DNA of 21,929 bases from a virus. Numbering within the stretch: position 1 is the stretch's first letter; the number at the start of each line of letters is the position of its first letter. The stretch covers positions 1-21,929 of the IMG/VR virus record IMGVR_UViG_3300021197_000859, one strand, 5' to 3'. The position numbers and the translations under genes were made by a program. Under the pieces are notes generated by a model, which saw only the letters and a program-made list of their open reading frames with translations, was not told where the DNA came from and ran no database searches. This document shows, piece after piece, positions 987-21,929 of the stretch.

Positions 987-3900
987 TATTTGTCTAGTGT
1001 TACAATTCCCTGTTGAACCAAATATGCTGTTGATGAAATACTCTCGTTGTCAAGGCCTACACAGAACAATACGTAATGACCTTCAGGTATCTCTGAGGTC
1101 GTGTTAACCGCGACCGTAAGCCAGCCCTGCGTGGTGGAGTTAGAAACAAAATCTCTATCAGCCCTAAGCGTCCAAGCAGACTGGCTTCCGCTTGACGGCA
1201 GCGCACTAATACTCCATATTTGAGCTCTGTAATCCAATGAGTATCCACTAGAGTTGACTGGTCTGTGCTGGAAATTCCACACAACCTTAGCCGATTCAGG
1301 CATCTTAAACGACGATCCAGCATTGATGTTAGATATACCCTGAGTGGTTGTGTCGATTGTACCAGAAGAGACGGTGTCAAAAATCTCTGTGCTCCAGATA
1401 TAGTAGTTCGTACCAAAGGATGAGTTACCACACATTATGGTTCTGTTGTCATCATCAGCATCGAACTGAAATCTTCCACTTAGAGTTGCAAATGGCTTAG
1501 GGAAAGCCCTGTCATCGCCAAAAGACAAAGCACCACTTCCATCGGTTTGAAGGGCTTGACCGCTTGTTCCGTCTTCGGTTGGGAGGGTTAGGTCCACATT
1601 TGACGTCAATACTGACGGTGCAGTAAGAGTGACAAAGCTGCTGCTGTCTACATCACCTAACTTAATCTGGCCTGCGCCACTGGGGAGGCCATCGACAGTA
1701 ACCGTTCTTGTACCAGTGATAGCTCCAACCGAAGATATTCTAGCGTATTCAGTCGACGAGTTCTCAAGGATCAGGTCATTACCTCCCATCTCTATCGTCC
1801 TATCTGCAGACAAAGTCTGATCTGTGTTGCCAAGATTTGTGTCAGTGCCTCCGCTTTGATCTTCCCAGGTCAACACACCCAAGCCGTTGGTAGTCAAGAC
1901 TTGATCTGCATCTCCGTTTGTTGTAGGCAGGACTAGTGTGTAGTCAGCAGACAGATTAGGAGGTTGGATAATTACACCGTACGAGTTGTCAGCATTATTC
2001 ATACGCAGCTGTCCTGAACCAGCACCATATCCTTTTACGGTGAGCCGCCTTCTAAATTCAGCTTTACCATCATTCTGTATGTTTGCTATTCCAGCTATAG
2101 CCCCGTCAAAGGTGAGTGTGTTTCCGTCTAGGTCAATCGTCCTGTCGGTAGCAAGAACCTGATCGGAGTTACCGAGGTTTGTGTCTGTATCTGTAAACGT
2201 ACTGAACGAAAGAACACCAGATCCGTTCGTGACCATCGCTTGACCAGGCGTTCCGTCCGAGCTAGGGTATTGCAGCCCTTGAAGCGTAAGATCTTGACCT
2301 TCAGCACGAAGGTATCTATGAGTCAAGTCGTCAATCTTGAATACCCCTCCATTTACGTCTACTTCCTGAGTCTCACCACTAAGGTCATAAACATGACTAC
2401 CTGTTGCTGTTAGGTCTCCAGTAGATATGTTGGTGTTTGTGTCGGCTATAGTATTAGCAATCGTTATGGAACCATCACCGTTTGTTATAGATATCCCCGC
2501 TCCTGCCGTCAACGTAGAAACTTCTAGGCCTCCTGACCCTCCAATAAGCAGCTCGCCATTAGCACCAGGAAGAGTCGGTACCCCCGAAATCTCACTATAA
2601 GCTATTTGGTTGAAAGTAACAGCCCCCGATCCGTCAGTCTTCAAATAGGTATCTTCAGGACCGTCTGCTGCAGGCAAGGTGTATGCAGACTCTACTGTAT
2701 TGGTAGAGCTGCCAATAAAGAACTTACCATCAGTGAGGTTAGGCACATCGTTAACCCTTCCAGCCCCCATGATGACGGCTGATATTGTATTATTCCCTGT
2801 GTTCGATTTTATGACGATACCTATGTTCTGTATCTTATTAGATCCAGTAGGCTTTGTAGTCGTAAACTCACCAGCAGTGCTTGACAGATAAATGGTGTCA
2901 CCTTCAGGGAAGTTCGAAGCGTCAGTTACTGATATGTCTTTTACAAAACCTATAACAACGCCCTTACCAGAACCGTTTGCAGTGATGTCCTCAGCAAGAA
3001 CGAAATGAGCTGGATAGTTCGTCGTAGCGTCAGCTGCAACAACATTAGCTTGCTGCCCAGTGGACCCAGTTACGTGCACAGGAGTTCCTTTTGTAAGCGT
3101 TCCTGTATCAACATTCTTGACATCCTCGCCTACCGTCTTGGGGTACGAAAAAGAAACCGTACCATCACCAGCCGTAGTAAGCACTTGACCGTCATCGCCA
3201 TCAGCAGAGGGCAGAGTATAAGGACTTGTAGCATCATTCACCTTGAGGTTTTTAACCTCAAGCGTCTCAGTGTCTGAATCGTATGTAAGTCCGCTAGCGT
3301 CAGTATGAAGTGTTTGATCGCCTGTTGCGTCAGTAGCAAATACAGGAAAGCATGTCGTGTCTGCGCTTTCGTCTGCAAGAGTAACGTCCGTGGCGGTGCC
3401 GTCGGCCTCTACAGTGAAGCCTCCAGCTGCTATATCAGTAAAAGATATGTTGGCTCCAGCGGTGATATCTACAGTATCGTCACTTGTCGGTTGCGACAAG
3501 GTTAGCCTAACGACGGTTTGATCGCCCTCAGAGTCTGTCGCTTGGAGCGTCTGGTCATCTACAACAAAGTCTACGTCATTCGTAGCGTCCTGATAAGTGA
3601 CAGTTATACCAGTCTGATCTCCAGAGTTGGTACTATCTATCAAGCCGCCAGCGTAATCTTCTACCTCTTCCTGAGTGAGGTTGGTGTTTGAAAGCGTGTT
3701 AGTAAGAGTGATAGTATCACCACTTCTAGAGATGCTCATGTTAGTCCCAGCTTCGATGACAACATCATCGCTGTTGGTGCCATCCGAAATTCTTATTTTC
3801 TCCTGAGTGGCAACGTCTCCGTCTTGCGCCGTAATAGTGATGAGATCTGCGCCTACAGAACCATCCTCAAGAAGTACTTTCTTCCAAGAGGTGTCGTCAC

Positions 3901-9531: not shown

Positions 9532-9546
9532 AGATATTTAATTTAG

Positions 9547-9620
9547 TACGCCCGACAGGATTCGAACCTGTGACCGTCTGCTTAGAAGGCAGATGCTCTA
9601 TCCAGCTGAGCTACGAGCGC
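9547..9620 (-). tRNA. tRNA-Arg, anticodon UCU
   Basis: A complete 74-base cloverleaf can be drawn: acceptor GCGCTCG/CGGGCGT (two G-T pairs and one T-G pair), D arm GCTC/GAGC, anticodon stem TCTGC/GCAGA with loop CTTCTAA (anticodon TCT), variable loop CGGTC, T arm ACAGG-TTCGAAT-CCTGT, discriminator A. No CCA is encoded. It reads AGA (and AGG by wobble). It lies 4 bases from a second tRNA inside the late operon, whose genes use AGA codons freely, unlike the right arm. Confidence 0.95.
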
Positions 9621-9624
9621 ATAG

Positions 9625-9698
9625 TTGGGGCGGCGGGACTTGAACCCGCGACTTCCTGTGTATAAGACAGACGCTCTAACCAACTGAACTACGCCCCA
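9625..9698 (-). tRNA. tRNA-Ile, anticodon UAU
   Basis: A 74-base cloverleaf: acceptor TGGGGCG/CGCCCCA, D arm GTTC/GAGC, anticodon stem TCTGT/ACAGG with loop CTTATAC (anticodon TAT), T arm GCGGG-TTCAAGT-CCCGC, discriminator A, no encoded CCA. An unmodified UAU anticodon would read AUA. Most bacteria instead read AUA with a CAU tRNA modified to lysidine, so a UAU isoacceptor is less common and would let the phage bypass that modification. A37 next to U36 is consistent with t6A. The structure is complete; the anticodon assignment depends on the 7-base loop, which is unambiguous here. Confidence 0.92.
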
Positions 9699-13751: not shown

Positions 13752-13781
13752 AAAGAGGCCCTTCGGGGCCTCTTTTTTTTT
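13752..13781 (+). terminator. Strong intrinsic terminator with UUCG tetraloop
   Basis: AAAGAGGCCC and GGGCCTCTTT enclose a TTCG loop closed by C-G, the classic stable C(UUCG)G tetraloop, followed by a run of T. It directly follows the stop of the 55-aa gene. On the minus strand the hairpin follows the 815-aa gene's stop, but the following T-run is only three, so termination that way would be weaker. Confidence 0.93.
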
Positions 13782-16232: not shown

Positions 16233-16240
16233 CAAATATA
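16233..16240 (-). promoter_or_regulatory. Bacteroidota-type -7 element TATATTTG for the 815-aa gene
   Basis: Minus-strand TATATTTG, an exact TAnnTTTG match, ends 5 bases before the ATG at 16227. Initiation at the usual distance would produce a leaderless or nearly leaderless mRNA, unless translation starts at the ATG at 16221 or 16218. Confidence 0.5.
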
Positions 16241-17022
16241 ATAAGTATTTGTTAGTTATCAGAACCAGGTCATCATAGCACAACTTAAGATAGTCCTGTC
16301 CGCAATTCAACAGTAATGAGCAACAGCTTCAACTCTCTAACACCTCATATTTACTTGAGAAGCTCGTGATTCACTGTAACGAGTCTCGCCTTAACTGCTT
16401 CGAATGCGAAGTTACAACAGAAAATCGCAAAAGTCAAGAGTTAATGAATAGCTACAAGTAGAACAGCGTACCTATCTGGTAAAGAAGGAGTTATACCATC
16501 TTACACGACGCAACACGCTAGGAAACACAGTAAGCTCCCATGGTAAATTTGGGTGAGAAATACAGATCCTGGGGAGAATACATACCCCACTTCACGCGCG
16601 TAACAAATCCGAAACGGATTTTTGAACCCTCACCCCTTCAAAGTCTACGACTTTGGGTTTGACGTTTAGGTTTTGACTTTTACCATAGGTAACTTACTAG
16701 GTACCAACAAGTTGGTAGTGGTTGAGTGAAGCACAGCACGAGGTAACGAGTTGTTACTCGTTGTAAACAGCAGAAGGACAAACCCCCACCTAAACCTTTA
16801 CTATAAGTAAAGACCCCCTTCTTTGGGGCTTCACAGGCACGCCTAGAAACCCTTGTGGTTTCTTCCTGGGCAGAGTCCGACAGGACTCCAAGGCGCATGC
16901 GGAGACGCGAGGCTGGACTCCTCACTGCCCCTTCACACGAATTCTTCGCGCCTGTTTTACCGAAGGTAAAATCGCGCATGGAATTAGCCGACCAAAAACT
17001 TGTGGCAACGAACCTCTTGCCG
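16241..17022. other. Divergent intergenic region with no convincing gene, hairpin-rich in its right half
   Basis: This stretch separates the minus-strand late arm from the plus-strand right arm. The only long frame (16680-17045, minus, 121 aa) has a low-complexity shadow-like translation and ends before any plausible leader, so I reject it. The left half (to about 16570) has only weak inverted repeats; the right half is filled by short perfect hairpins listed separately. Position at the divergence point makes it a candidate for a replication origin, a regulatory hub or a structured RNA. Confidence 0.6.
16605..16971. repeat. Cluster of short perfect hairpins, different in sequence
   Basis: Inverted repeats read by eye (arm, loop, arm): 16605-16621 AAATCCG/AAA; 16639-16655 CAAAGTC/TAC; 16702-16717 TACCAAC/AA; 16745-16762 AACGAGT/TGTT; 16796-16812 CTTTACT/ATA; 16845-16863 AGAAACC/CTTGT; 16873-16888 GAGTCC/GACA; 16955-16971 TTTTACC/GAA, the last flanked by GCGC/GCGC. 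Arms are 6-7 bp and loops 2-5 bases. The sequences are unrelated to each other, so what recurs is shape. The series continues in the adjacent coding region. Confidence 0.85.
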
Positions 17023-17030
17023 TAGCTTTG
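17000..17030 (+). promoter_or_regulatory. Bacteroidota -33/-7 promoter of the first right-arm operon
   Basis: TTG at 17000-17002 and TAGCTTTG at 17023-17030 are separated by 20 bases, matching the Bacteroidota housekeeping promoter (TTTG / TAnnTTTG, about 19-21 bases apart). Initiation near 17036 would give a leader of about 45 bases ending in the conserved G-free leader. This is the best host-type promoter in the window and suggests early transcription by host RNA polymerase. Confidence 0.65.
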
Positions 17031-17058
17031 TACCGACCTCGACACTCAGTCTTGGTCG

Positions 17059-17080
17059 TCAAACTTCAAATTCATTTACA
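17059..17080 (+). promoter_or_regulatory. Conserved G-free leader, copy 1
   Basis: TCAAACTTCAAATTCA followed by TTTACA and the ATG at 17081. This is one of five copies placed immediately before the first gene of a right-arm operon. It has no G and no Shine-Dalgarno sequence. It is preceded by a stem CGACC/GGTCG at 17034-17058. Confidence 0.75.
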
Positions 17081-17623
17081 ATGAATAACTTCCAATTCAA
17101 CGATTGCCGTAAGGCAGTCAACCAAGCCACTTTCCGTCCAACCGCAGAGCGCAAAGCCGCAGCAGTGAAACTGCTGAAGGATGCCATGGACTTCGTCTCC
17201 TCCTTGGAGGAGGTTACTGCAAAGCCTTCGAAGAAGGCAGGCAAGAAGCGTCGTCGTAAGACGACGAAGCGTACACCTTCACAGAAGGTGGCAGACCACC
17301 AAGAACGTTCTCACCACGGCAAAGCCGACGGAGTTGTCAAGCCTTCAAAGAAGGCTAAGAAGGCCGATGTAGCCAAAGCCGCCGCCGCCGCCAAAGCGGT
17401 CAGCGAGCACACAGGGGCTGAAAGCCGAGCCAAGCGGAAAGCCGATGCGGTGAAGGAGGCTGTTGCCTCTCCTGCTCAGGTGGCGTCAGACGATCGTGTA
17501 GCTTCCTTGGAAGCTAAGTTGGAGCAGTTGACCGCTACCTTGGCCGTCATGATGACGTCAGATGTGACACCCACGGCAAACGAAGTTTGCTTCTCTGACT
17601 TGCCATTCGAACCAACCCACTAA
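17081..17623 (+). CDS. 180-aa basic histone-tail-like protein with C-terminal coiled coil
   Basis: Start at 17081 (MNNFQFNDCRKAVNQATFRP) because the conserved leader ends there; the longer frame upstream runs through non-coding sequence. Order: N-terminal helix (about 1-45), a Lys/Arg/Ala-rich middle with KKAGKKRRRKTTKRTPSQK and two KPSKKA repeats (about 48-125), a coiled coil (ASLEAKLEQLTATLAVMM, about 147-165) and an acidic tail. The middle resembles histone H1/nucleoid tails, so DNA or RNA binding is likely; no named family. The coding DNA is itself packed with perfect hairpins, which is unexpected for a gene. It is the first plus-strand gene of the right arm, with a host-type promoter. 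Confidence 0.82.
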   Translation: MNNFQFNDCRKAVNQATFRPTAERKAAAVKLLKDAMDFVSSLEEVTAKPSKKAGKKRRRKTTKRTPSQKVADHQERSHHGKADGVVKPSKKAKKADVAKAAAAAKAVSEHTGAESRAKRKADAVKEAVASPAQVASDDRVASLEAKLEQLTATLAVMMTSDVTPTANEVCFSDLPFEPTH

Positions 17624-17635
17624 CCCATGAGTGGG
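17160..17635. repeat. Short perfect hairpins inside and just after the basic-protein gene
   Basis: 17160-17176 CAGCAGT/GAA; 17197-17212 CTCCTCC/TT; 17224-17238 GCCTTC/GAA; 17249-17266 CGTCGTC/GTAA; 17274-17290 CACCTTC/ACA; 17340-17356 AGCCTTC/AAA; 17499-17516 TAGCTTCC/TT; 17576-17590 GCAAAC/GAA; 17616-17635 CCCACT with an 8-base loop containing the end of the stop codon. Arms 6-8 bp. Shorter 4-bp versions with GAA or AAA loops (17317, 17416) also occur. Confidence 0.85.
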
Positions 17636-17683
17636 GGAGTATATACACCTTCTGAGTTTACGAAGAAGGTGATATACGACCCC
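17634..17683 (+). promoter_or_regulatory. Long hairpin upstream of operon 2
   Basis: GGGG...GTATATaCACCTTCT pairs with AGAAGGTGATATAC...CCCC around a 10-base loop: 14 pairs with one bulged A, then an internal loop and 4 G-C pairs. No T-run follows, so it does not look like a standard intrinsic terminator. It shares the TATACAC core with the hairpins at 18411 and 20185. Confidence 0.7.
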
Positions 17684-17700: not shown

Positions 17701-17721
17701 TCAAACTTCAATTCATTTCCA
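17701..17721 (+). promoter_or_regulatory. Conserved G-free leader, copy 2
   Basis: TCAAACTTCAATTCA then TTTCCA and ATG at 17722. It resembles copy 1 over about 24 bases, including the ATTCATTT-CA end. Confidence 0.75.
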
Positions 17722-17883
17722 ATGAAAAATTCAAATTACAAGGCGCAAATCGCCAAGTTGCAAGCCATGGTGGACATGTACAACGTGTTCGGGGCTGATG
17801 CCTACTACAACTCAGAGGAGTTCACAACCATGTCATGTGACATGCAGATGATGGTCACACAAGAAATCGAAGATTTGTCATGA
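17722..17883 (+). CDS. 53-aa hypothetical, operon 2 first gene
   Basis: Starts MKNSNYKAQIAKLQAMVDMY and ends VTQEIEDLS, Met-rich and mostly helical (7 Met plus the start). It directly follows leader copy 2 and overlaps the next gene by 4 bases (ATGA). No family recognised. The leader, the overlap and a single clean frame support it as real. Confidence 0.7.
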   Translation: MKNSNYKAQIAKLQAMVDMYNVFGADAYYNSEEFTTMSCDMQMMVTQEIEDLS

Positions 17884-18076: not shown

Positions 18077-18092
18077 TCAAACTTCAATTACA
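18077..18092 (+). promoter_or_regulatory. Conserved G-free leader, copy 3
   Basis: TCAAACTTCAATTA then CA and ATG at 18093. The shortest copy; its first 14 bases are identical to the inverted copy at 19900-19913. Confidence 0.75.
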
Positions 18093-18224
18093 ATGAACAC
18101 TCTCATTGCAACCCTCGCTCTGGCGCACCACCTCATGTTTATGGGCTGTTGCGTAGTCGCAACCATCATGCTCGTAGGCATTACTATGGACGCTGTTAAC
18201 AACTTGAAAAACAAAGAGTTATGA
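18093..18224 (+). CDS. 43-aa single-span membrane peptide
   Basis: MNTLIATLALAHHLMFMGCC followed by VVATIMLVGITMDAVNN and a charged LKNKEL end. A hydrophobic stretch from about residue 13 to 33 is long enough for one membrane span, with positive residues after it. It starts at leader copy 3 and overlaps the next gene by 4 bases. Small membrane peptides in early phage regions can act on host membrane functions, but nothing here identifies one. Confidence 0.68.
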   Translation: MNTLIATLALAHHLMFMGCCVVATIMLVGITMDAVNNLKNKEL

Positions 18225-18410: not shown

Positions 18411-18470
18411 AGAGAGTTACGTGTATATACTCTCTGAACACAGTGAAGAGAGTATATACACTTAACCTCT
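18411..18470 (+). promoter_or_regulatory. Very long hairpin upstream of operon 4
   Basis: GTTACGTGTATATACTCTCT (18416-18435) pairs with 18447-18466 in 19 of 20 positions around an 11-base loop, and AGAG/CTCT extend it past one bulged A. No T-run follows. It shares the TATACAC/GTGTATA core with the other two long hairpins. Confidence 0.85.
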
Positions 18471-18475
18471 CAATG

Positions 18476-18497
18476 TCAAACTTCAAATCTCCATCTC
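18476..18497 (+). promoter_or_regulatory. Conserved leader, copy 4
   Basis: TCAAACTTCAAATCT, then CCATCTC and ATG at 18498. It diverges from the others after the core but keeps the position and lack of G. Confidence 0.72.
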
Positions 18498-18728
18498 ATG
18501 GACAACTTCTTCAAACGCCCCGTCGGTGCGGCGGTGCTCTTCCTCAACGACTTTCACTTTGGGAAGCATATCAATGACCTCAATCGGTGTGCTCGGCTTG
18601 TGCCGAAGGACGTAAAGGGCATGGCCTCCATGCTGTCCAACACCACCGACCTGAGCGATGACGCAAAGGATGCGGTCATCGACACCCTTGTTGGATGGGC
18701 AGACGATGCAGAAAATGCAGAGTCATGA
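18498..18728 (+). CDS. 76-aa hypothetical, operon 4 first gene
   Basis: MDNFFKRPVGAAVLFLNDFH, a GKHINDLNRCARLVPKDVKG middle and an acidic helical end (LSDDAKDAVIDTLVGWADDA). Mostly helical, no catalytic motif, not recognised. It follows leader copy 4 and begins a run of seven genes joined by ATGA overlaps, so the whole run is probably one message. Confidence 0.72.
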   Translation: MDNFFKRPVGAAVLFLNDFHFGKHINDLNRCARLVPKDVKGMASMLSNTTDLSDDAKDAVIDTLVGWADDAENAES

Positions 18729-21292: not shown

Positions 21293-21929
21293 ATTCAGCA
21301 CAAGAATCTAAGAACGAGCTTGAAGCGGCCATCCGCTACGCAGAAAACGCTATCTCCTCTGCCAACCAAACCATCGAGTCGATGGAGTTCCGCCAAGAGA
21401 TGGCACAGAAAAACTACCAAGAGCAGACAGGTCGTGAGGCCGCGCTTCAAGAGGAGCGGGATATGCTAGAGAAGAACGTCAAGTACTTGCGTGACGAGAA
21501 CGAACGGCTGAATCGTGATGTCGAGTTCTACACCAAGGAGTACAACAAGTTGGTACAACAGAAAGAAGCATCAAGCGGACCATGCGGATGCCAAGCATAC
21601 CGAGACCTCGAAGAGCGAGCAACTATGCCCGTCATCCCAAAGGACGTAGCCATCGCCATCTTCCGTGAGGGTGTGCAACATGGTGTCGAGGCGGCATGCA
21701 CAGAGCTTGACGGACAGACCATCAACATCTGCGAGAACGAATACTGCGGTGACTTCGAGGTTACATTCGCACGAAACATTCACCTCGACGACGAGCTTGA
21801 CCTCGACTGGATGCGTGGCAAGTGCGGGGACTACACCGAAGAGAGCGCCATTGACGCACTCAAGAACCTGTGTGCTGACAAGGAGTTCGAATGCCGTATC
21901 CACGGAGTAGATGACCAAGGAGACGATAG
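21289..21929 (+). CDS. Coiled-coil protein, C-terminus cut by window
   Basis: 213 codons are open to the window end with no stop. The first ~95 residues form a coiled coil (MNSAQESKNELEAAIRYAEN ... LEKNVKYLRDENERLNRD), followed by a CGC motif near residue 99 (PCGCQAYRD) and an alpha/beta C-terminal part. All 13 Arg codons are CGN and none of the Ile codons is ATA. Function unknown. Last gene of operon 5 in this window. Confidence 0.78.
   Translation, partial: MNSAQESKNELEAAIRYAENAISSANQTIESMEFRQEMAQKNYQEQTGREAALQEERDMLEKNVKYLRDENERLNRDVEFYTKEYNKLVQQKEASSGPCGCQAYRDLEERATMPVIPKDVAIAIFREGVQHGVEAACTELDGQTINICENEYCGDFEVTFARNIHLDDELDLDWMRGKCGDYTEESAIDALKNLCADKEFECRIHGVDDQGDD

Follow-up and report, generated by a model that had tools for sequence, protein, structure and literature searches.

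An array of short hairpins of one size at the divergent early/late junction of an uncultured phage family, possibly selected for the folding of its DNA

Gene layout and features of the junction

The window analysed here is an entire virus record of 21.9 kb (21,929 nucleotides). Its left part carries leftward genes for a terminase, a portal, a GroES-like protein and an M15 endolysin, and its right part small early-type genes directed rightward. No DNA similarity of the window to known phages was found; its large terminase presented 40% identity to those of Flavobacterium Elemovirus phages, which are distant relatives in culture, and 48% to that of MW202828. This kinship, together with elements of the form TAnnTTTG, which we take to be the Bacteroidota-type promoter consensus, and a BT4734-like primase-helicase encoded in a relative, points to Bacteroidota as the apparent hosts of this uncultured phage family. 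Two tRNA genes, Arg (TCT) and Ile (TAT), were located on the late strand at 9546-9698, and a strong hairpin, AAAGAGGCCC-ttcg-GGGCCTCTTT, adjoins the end of an 815-aa gene at 13752-13775 and is likely an intrinsic terminator. In one related genome (G001, 26692-28822) the reading frame of the large terminase was in pieces, by insertion, frameshift or sequencing error.

The features of the junction are listed below. The hairpins, to which no strand is assigned, come from a scan for inverted repeats, and those at 16955, 17070 and 17499 also from comparison with kin.

16233..16240, minus strand: Bacteroidota-type -7 element TATATTTG, putative promoter of the divergent late arm (motif)
16559..16580, plus strand: box AATACAGATCCTGGGGAGAATA, bordering the array on its upstream side, consensus AATACAGATCGTGGGGATTATAT in group A defined below (motif search)
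16605..16621: hairpin AAATCCG-aaa-CGGATTT
16639..16655: hairpin CAAAGTC-tac-GACTTTG
16702..16717: hairpin TACCAAC-aa-GTTGGTA
16745..16762: hairpin AACGAGT-tgtt-ACTCGTT
16796..16812: hairpin CTTTACT-ata-AGTAAAG
16845..16863: hairpin AGAAACC-cttgt-GGTTTCT
16955..16971: hairpin TTTTACC-gaa-GGTAAAA, the sole leader hairpin common to all close kin
17023..17030, plus strand: Bacteroidota-type -7 element TAgcTTTG, putative promoter 58 bp 5' of the basic-protein gene
17051-17083, 17702-17724, 18077-18096 and 18473-18500: copies of the leader (T)CAAACTTCAAATTCA..ACAATG
17070..17086: hairpin ATTCATT-tac-AATGAAT, with the start codon inside
17081..17623, plus strand: gene of a Lys/Arg-rich basic protein of 180 aa, first of the rightward arm (ORF)
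17160..17176: coding hairpin CAGCAGT-gaa-ACTGCTG
17197..17212: coding hairpin CTCCTCC-tt-GGAGGAG
17249..17267: coding hairpin CGTCGTC-gtaa-GACGACG, in two registers
17274..17290: coding hairpin CACCTTC-aca-GAAGGTG
17340..17356: coding hairpin AGCCTTC-aaa-GAAGGCT
17499..17516: coding hairpin TAGCTTCC-tt-GGAAGCTA

The basic protein had no Pfam or PHROG match. Its predicted structure (pTM 0.25) was too poor for a fold search; the only part predicted with confidence was an N-terminal two-helix unit, and the tail is rich in Lys. Allowing up to 4 mismatches, the box gave one match each in the window and in three of four near-complete related genomes (G001, G002 and G005), always adjoining the array, and no match in the fourth (G003). 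The box was rejected as a repeated promoter, being single-copy in every genome where it was found.

Excess, distribution and size of the hairpins

When all perfect inverted repeats with arms of 7 or more bases and loops of 2-5 bases were enumerated, the whole window had 24, of which 15 lay within 16605-17516 and 9 in the other 21 kb. The 15 repeats occupy 14 separate places, those at 17249 and 17251 overlapping, and the arm measured exactly 7 in 14 of them and 8 in the remaining one. First-order Markov shuffles of 16601-17640 contained a mean of 0.27 such repeats as compared to the 15 observed (maximum 3; 2000 shuffles), and in 200 shuffles of the whole window no kilobase ever held more than 3 hairpins. 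The first-pass annotation, with its count of at least 13 far above chance, was therefore right, if slightly low. The same holds for its description of a series running from non-coding DNA into the basic-protein gene (17081-17623), which contained 7 hairpins vs. 0.44 when codons were shuffled among synonyms (maximum 4; 3000 shuffles). A similar density elsewhere, which would have spoken against the excess, was looked for in the rest of the genome and in the shuffles, where values were low. Maximum densities per kilobase in other phages were 3 in Lambda, 4 in phi14:2 (50 kb), 6 in N4 (50 kb), 5 in MW202828 (42 kb), and 2 in Elemovirus (42 kb).

Loops of both the C(GAA)G and the T(GAA)A kind were present (at 16955, at 17160 and in a 6-bp stem near 17225). 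The arms were unrelated to each other in most cases, as had been proposed, except for a few coding arms sharing CCTTC/GAAGG because of repeated codons of the Pro-Ser-Lys-Lys type. Duplication of a repeat was rejected as the origin of the hairpins since the arms differ.

Searches with the terminase yielded 80 loci, several of which displayed dense hairpin stretches at the same place, a gene for a Lys-rich protein at the divergent junction. Searches with this protein gave 36 related viral loci carrying the gene and no relatives in bacterial or archaeal genomes. Over a range of 1000 bp upstream and 900 bp downstream of the gene start, group A (30 loci, L086-L115) presented 9-29 hairpins over a leader of about 500 bp and the gene, the lowest values corresponding to truncated loci. 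In group B, formed by the window and six kin (L116-L121), the kin presented 3-7 hairpins and the window 16 over the same range. Gene and hairpins occurred together in 36 of 36 loci, an association that is not independent because the loci had been found by the gene. Two loci with a different Lys-rich gene (L043 and L049) had one hairpin each in that gene. The array had sharp limits: each of the four near-complete genomes (55-63 kb) contained a single one, with 11 + 13, 13 + 4, and 10 + 8 hairpins in adjacent kilobases of G001, G002, and G005, and 6 per kb in G003, which belongs to group B, against 0-3 hairpins per kb elsewhere. The leader array is not indispensable, as the group B kin are without most of the leader hairpins. 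In a distant relative, MW202828 (L084), the identical hairpin GTGTCGT-ta-ACGACAC was found at 3710, 6219, 6555, and 6821, between early genes; these four copies are repeated by sequence, unlike the array of the window.

Hairpin size was clearly restricted. In group A and the window, an arm of 7 with a loop of 3 occurred 5.6 times per kb vs. 0.04 in shuffles, and the excess peaked at a 7-bp stem with a loop of 3-4 bases. The arm grew as the loop shrank (mostly arms of 7-8 with loops of 2, and arms of 7-9 with loops of 0-1), a trade-off expected of a fixed folded size, and arms longer than the preferred size became about fourfold fewer with each added base pair. Such a pattern follows from a required stem of about 7 bp with 3-4 bases closing it; it is not what a dimeric protein on double-stranded palindromes of fixed spacing would give.

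Conservation of shape and turnover of the stems

In an alignment of 26 group A loci, with 242 pairs taken from majority hairpins, the same columns carried different stems in different loci; at one place these were TTGGAAC-tac-GTTCCAA, TTGGGGT-atc-ACCCCAA, and TCGGTGG-ctt-CCACCGA. Changes on both sides of a pair amounted to 422 cells, as compared to 156 after shuffling and 80-144 when the partners were displaced by 1-3 columns, and the covariation score was 0.169 vs. 0.082 and 0.031-0.065, respectively. Between L086 and L087, which diverge by 16% outside stems, 146 stem pairs showed 6 compensated changes and 1 single change. Uncompensated drift of the arms, the other outcome named in advance as contrary to the array, was thus tested in relatives and not found, the changes being mostly compensated. 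The hairpin at 16955..16971 appears in L116 with a compensated change as TTTTACT-gaa-AGTAAAA, and at the start codon (17070..17086) kin keep a hairpin of 6-7 bp, such as TTCATC-tac-GATGAA. The protein yields to the hairpin, reading GLELTQ, GLEQAQ, and GLEQDQ over CTTGAGTTAACTCAAG, CTTGAGCAAGCTCAAG, and TGGTCTTGAACAAGACCA, respectively, and in group A the stop codon is itself the start of a hairpin (TGATAAC-gta-GTTATCA or TAATAAC-tac-GTTATTA). In the 30 loci of this group, the start codon of the next early gene directly follows or overlaps small hairpins with varied loops, e.g., TAAAATC-tat-GATTTTATG.

Were the stems folded as RNA, G-U intermediates should exceed A-C ones. Among pairs of loci 80-95% alike, which are not independent of each other, the leader had 101 single changes to G-T and 125 to A-C, and the gene 115 and 101, respectively. 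In orthologues with one mismatch, with a longer conserved leader hairpin set aside, neither was favoured; a simpler count leaned slightly to G-T (40 vs. 30 for A-C; 12 and 15 in shuffles). The small hairpins thus did not accept G-U more than A-C, as functional RNA stems do. Given the dependence between pairs of loci, this is an argument against RNA and not a proof. Group A loci (L086 and kin) also carry a long imperfect hairpin at columns 668-735 of alignment A5, about 100-40 bp ahead of the start codon. It was nearly invariant in sequence with G-U variants and looks like an RNA element, unlike the small hairpins.

Origin of the array and its possible role

Our preferred reading, held tentatively, is that selection maintains an array of short DNA hairpins, which occupies the junction of the divergent early and late arms and extends through the first early gene. 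Its unit would be a 7-bp Watson-Crick stem with a loop of 3-4 bases, and what is selected would be the capacity of the DNA to fold onto itself, not its sequence.

An array without function, in which local template switching in an often single-stranded stretch makes and keeps perfect palindromes, appears unlikely, even though part of the data fits the template switching suggested in the first-pass annotation. Such switching equalises arms and inverts loops (PMC8604942, PMC8794818), and arm conversion was proposed for palindromes of nematomorph mitochondria (PMC6649704); all three are precedents for this explanation. Hairpins of the array were in fact perfect or absent (596 perfect vs. 64 with one mismatch), and gains and losses were seen between kin. 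Loop inversion was only suggestive of template switching once the null was drawn from the observed loops: with equal arms, 3 of 4 wholly changed 3-base loops were inversions (19% expected; p 0.02), whereas for 2-base loops inversions were not above the null (8 of 14 vs. 52% expected; p 0.45). Neutral arm conversion predicts that a stem pair diverges about as fast as a loop base. In the leader, however, stem pairs diverged 0.087 vs. 0.267 for loops in pairs of loci 85-95% alike, and 0.156 vs. 0.390 in pairs 75-85% alike, that is, at 0.3-0.4 of the loop rate. Moreover, the gene, though constrained by its protein, held more hairpins than the leader (247 per 16.9 kb vs. 122 per 14.9 kb), and the rest of the genome stayed at background. 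The slower leader stems speak for a selected fold, to which conversion may have contributed. As in the nematomorph genes, perfect repeats lie inside coding DNA with few imperfect ones, some positions are shared, and gains and losses occur between species; those palindromes, in contrast, are up to 284 bp long and dispersed among many genes (PMC6649704), whereas the phage hairpins are of uniform length (about 17 bp) and keep to a single locus, part of which is non-coding. Template-switch hairpins share with the array arm homogenisation and loop inversion as mutational routes but have been described as isolated, dispersed events and not as a dense series of uniform size (PMC8794818, PMC8604942).

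Less improbable, although still on the unlikely side, is an action of the hairpins in the early transcript, where those of the leader and the first mRNA would govern stability, translation or protein binding. The array is bounded by the single-copy box on one side and by the stop codon of a single gene on the other, with hairpins on both start and stop codons; in group A it ends at the stop codon, small hairpins being present there and at the start of the next gene, the longer leader hairpin (helix 14) has G-U variants, and the leader folds better than shuffles (z -2.7). The leader of this group may be transcribed, as no recognised promoter lies close to the gene. In group B, the window included, the TAnnTTTG element before the basic-protein gene is conserved, and its position only 58 bp from the gene leaves all but one of the leader hairpins of the window upstream of it. 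This, the missing preference of the small hairpins for G-U, the lack of enrichment of the usual stable RNA tetraloops and the absence of any matching Rfam family speak against a transcript. The proposal of a large structured RNA like GOLLD or ROOL failed on the same grounds: those RNAs are likewise kilobase-scale structured regions in phage genomes, but the array, with local hairpins only and no wobble tolerance, had no Rfam match even at E 1, and curated and permissive thresholds returned from the window just the two tRNAs, away from the array. Hairpin promoters read by an N4-like virion RNA polymerase, also proposed at first, agree in geometry, the N4 hairpin AAGAAGC-tcc-GCTTCTT having an arm of 7 and a loop of 3, within the small stem of about 5-7 bp and 3-base loop typical of these promoters, and both occur in phage DNA in an early region. 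N4 has three early promoters, whose hairpins extrude at physiological supercoiling and require conserved loop and stem bases (PMC4496689). Here, loops and stems vary freely, without the conserved loop purine or any shared stem base, a single locus has 15-29 copies, many of which lie within a gene, no RNA polymerase domain was found in the tested giant virion proteins of MW202828 and G003, and ordinary Bacteroidota promoter elements are present, all of which makes N4-type promoters very improbable. The early region of N4 itself (L139, 243-1254) contains 6 perfect hairpins of 7-9 bp in about 1 kb, more than one promoter hairpin accounts for.

We infer that it is the DNA that folds, and not RNA. 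In the preferred reading of a selected DNA array, hairpins would most likely form on single-stranded or negatively supercoiled DNA, and stems would be replaced by compensated changes, possibly aided by template switching, in which one arm serves as the template for the other. Most likely, they would also mark or control the start site of phage replication or of early expression, perhaps together with the basic protein of the locus, which could bind them. The array lies between the promoter element of the late arm and the first gene of the early arm and adjoins a single-copy box, a position in keeping with a replication origin or a region of early control. An origin-like element, control dependent on supercoiling or single-stranded DNA, and a platform for the basic protein, whose binding sites were among the first-pass proposals, are the functions that we infer. 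Cumulative GC skew was tried as a sign of a replication origin and set aside, the minimum lying beside the array in two of three genomes (G001 and G002, not G003) and being confounded with gene direction.

No described element of this organisation was found in the open-licence papers searched, and the nearest known phenomena differ from the array in size, spread or sequence conservation. With slightly more reserve, the locus may represent a genetic element of a new kind, coded by shape: about 10-30 DNA hairpins of seven base pairs, kept by selection whatever their sequence and distributed over both a control region and a gene. It would act through the folding of single-stranded or supercoiled phage DNA as an origin, an expression switch or a platform for an H1-like phage protein.

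As a rule, a conserved DNA signal is read through its sequence. In this family, dozens of phages retain hairpin size and position but exchange the bases, even bending a protein sequence. If confirmed, the array would offer a natural test case of whether short DNA hairpins form and function in cells, and of how compensated changes arise.

Two further elements were observed in the early arm. The leader (T)CAAACTTCAAATTCA..ACAATG is repeated 5' of the start codons of several successive early genes of the window, with no Shine-Dalgarno motif evident in its copies. An inverted repeat, GTATATACACCTTC...GAAGGTGATATAC, at 17639-17677 is conserved among group B loci 3' of the stop codon of the basic-protein gene, and G003 has it again in its early arm at 21346, 22581, and 24621, with a variant, GTGTATATACTCTC...GAGAGTATATACAC, near 18421-18460 of the window; repeats of this type are possibly terminators or processing sites.
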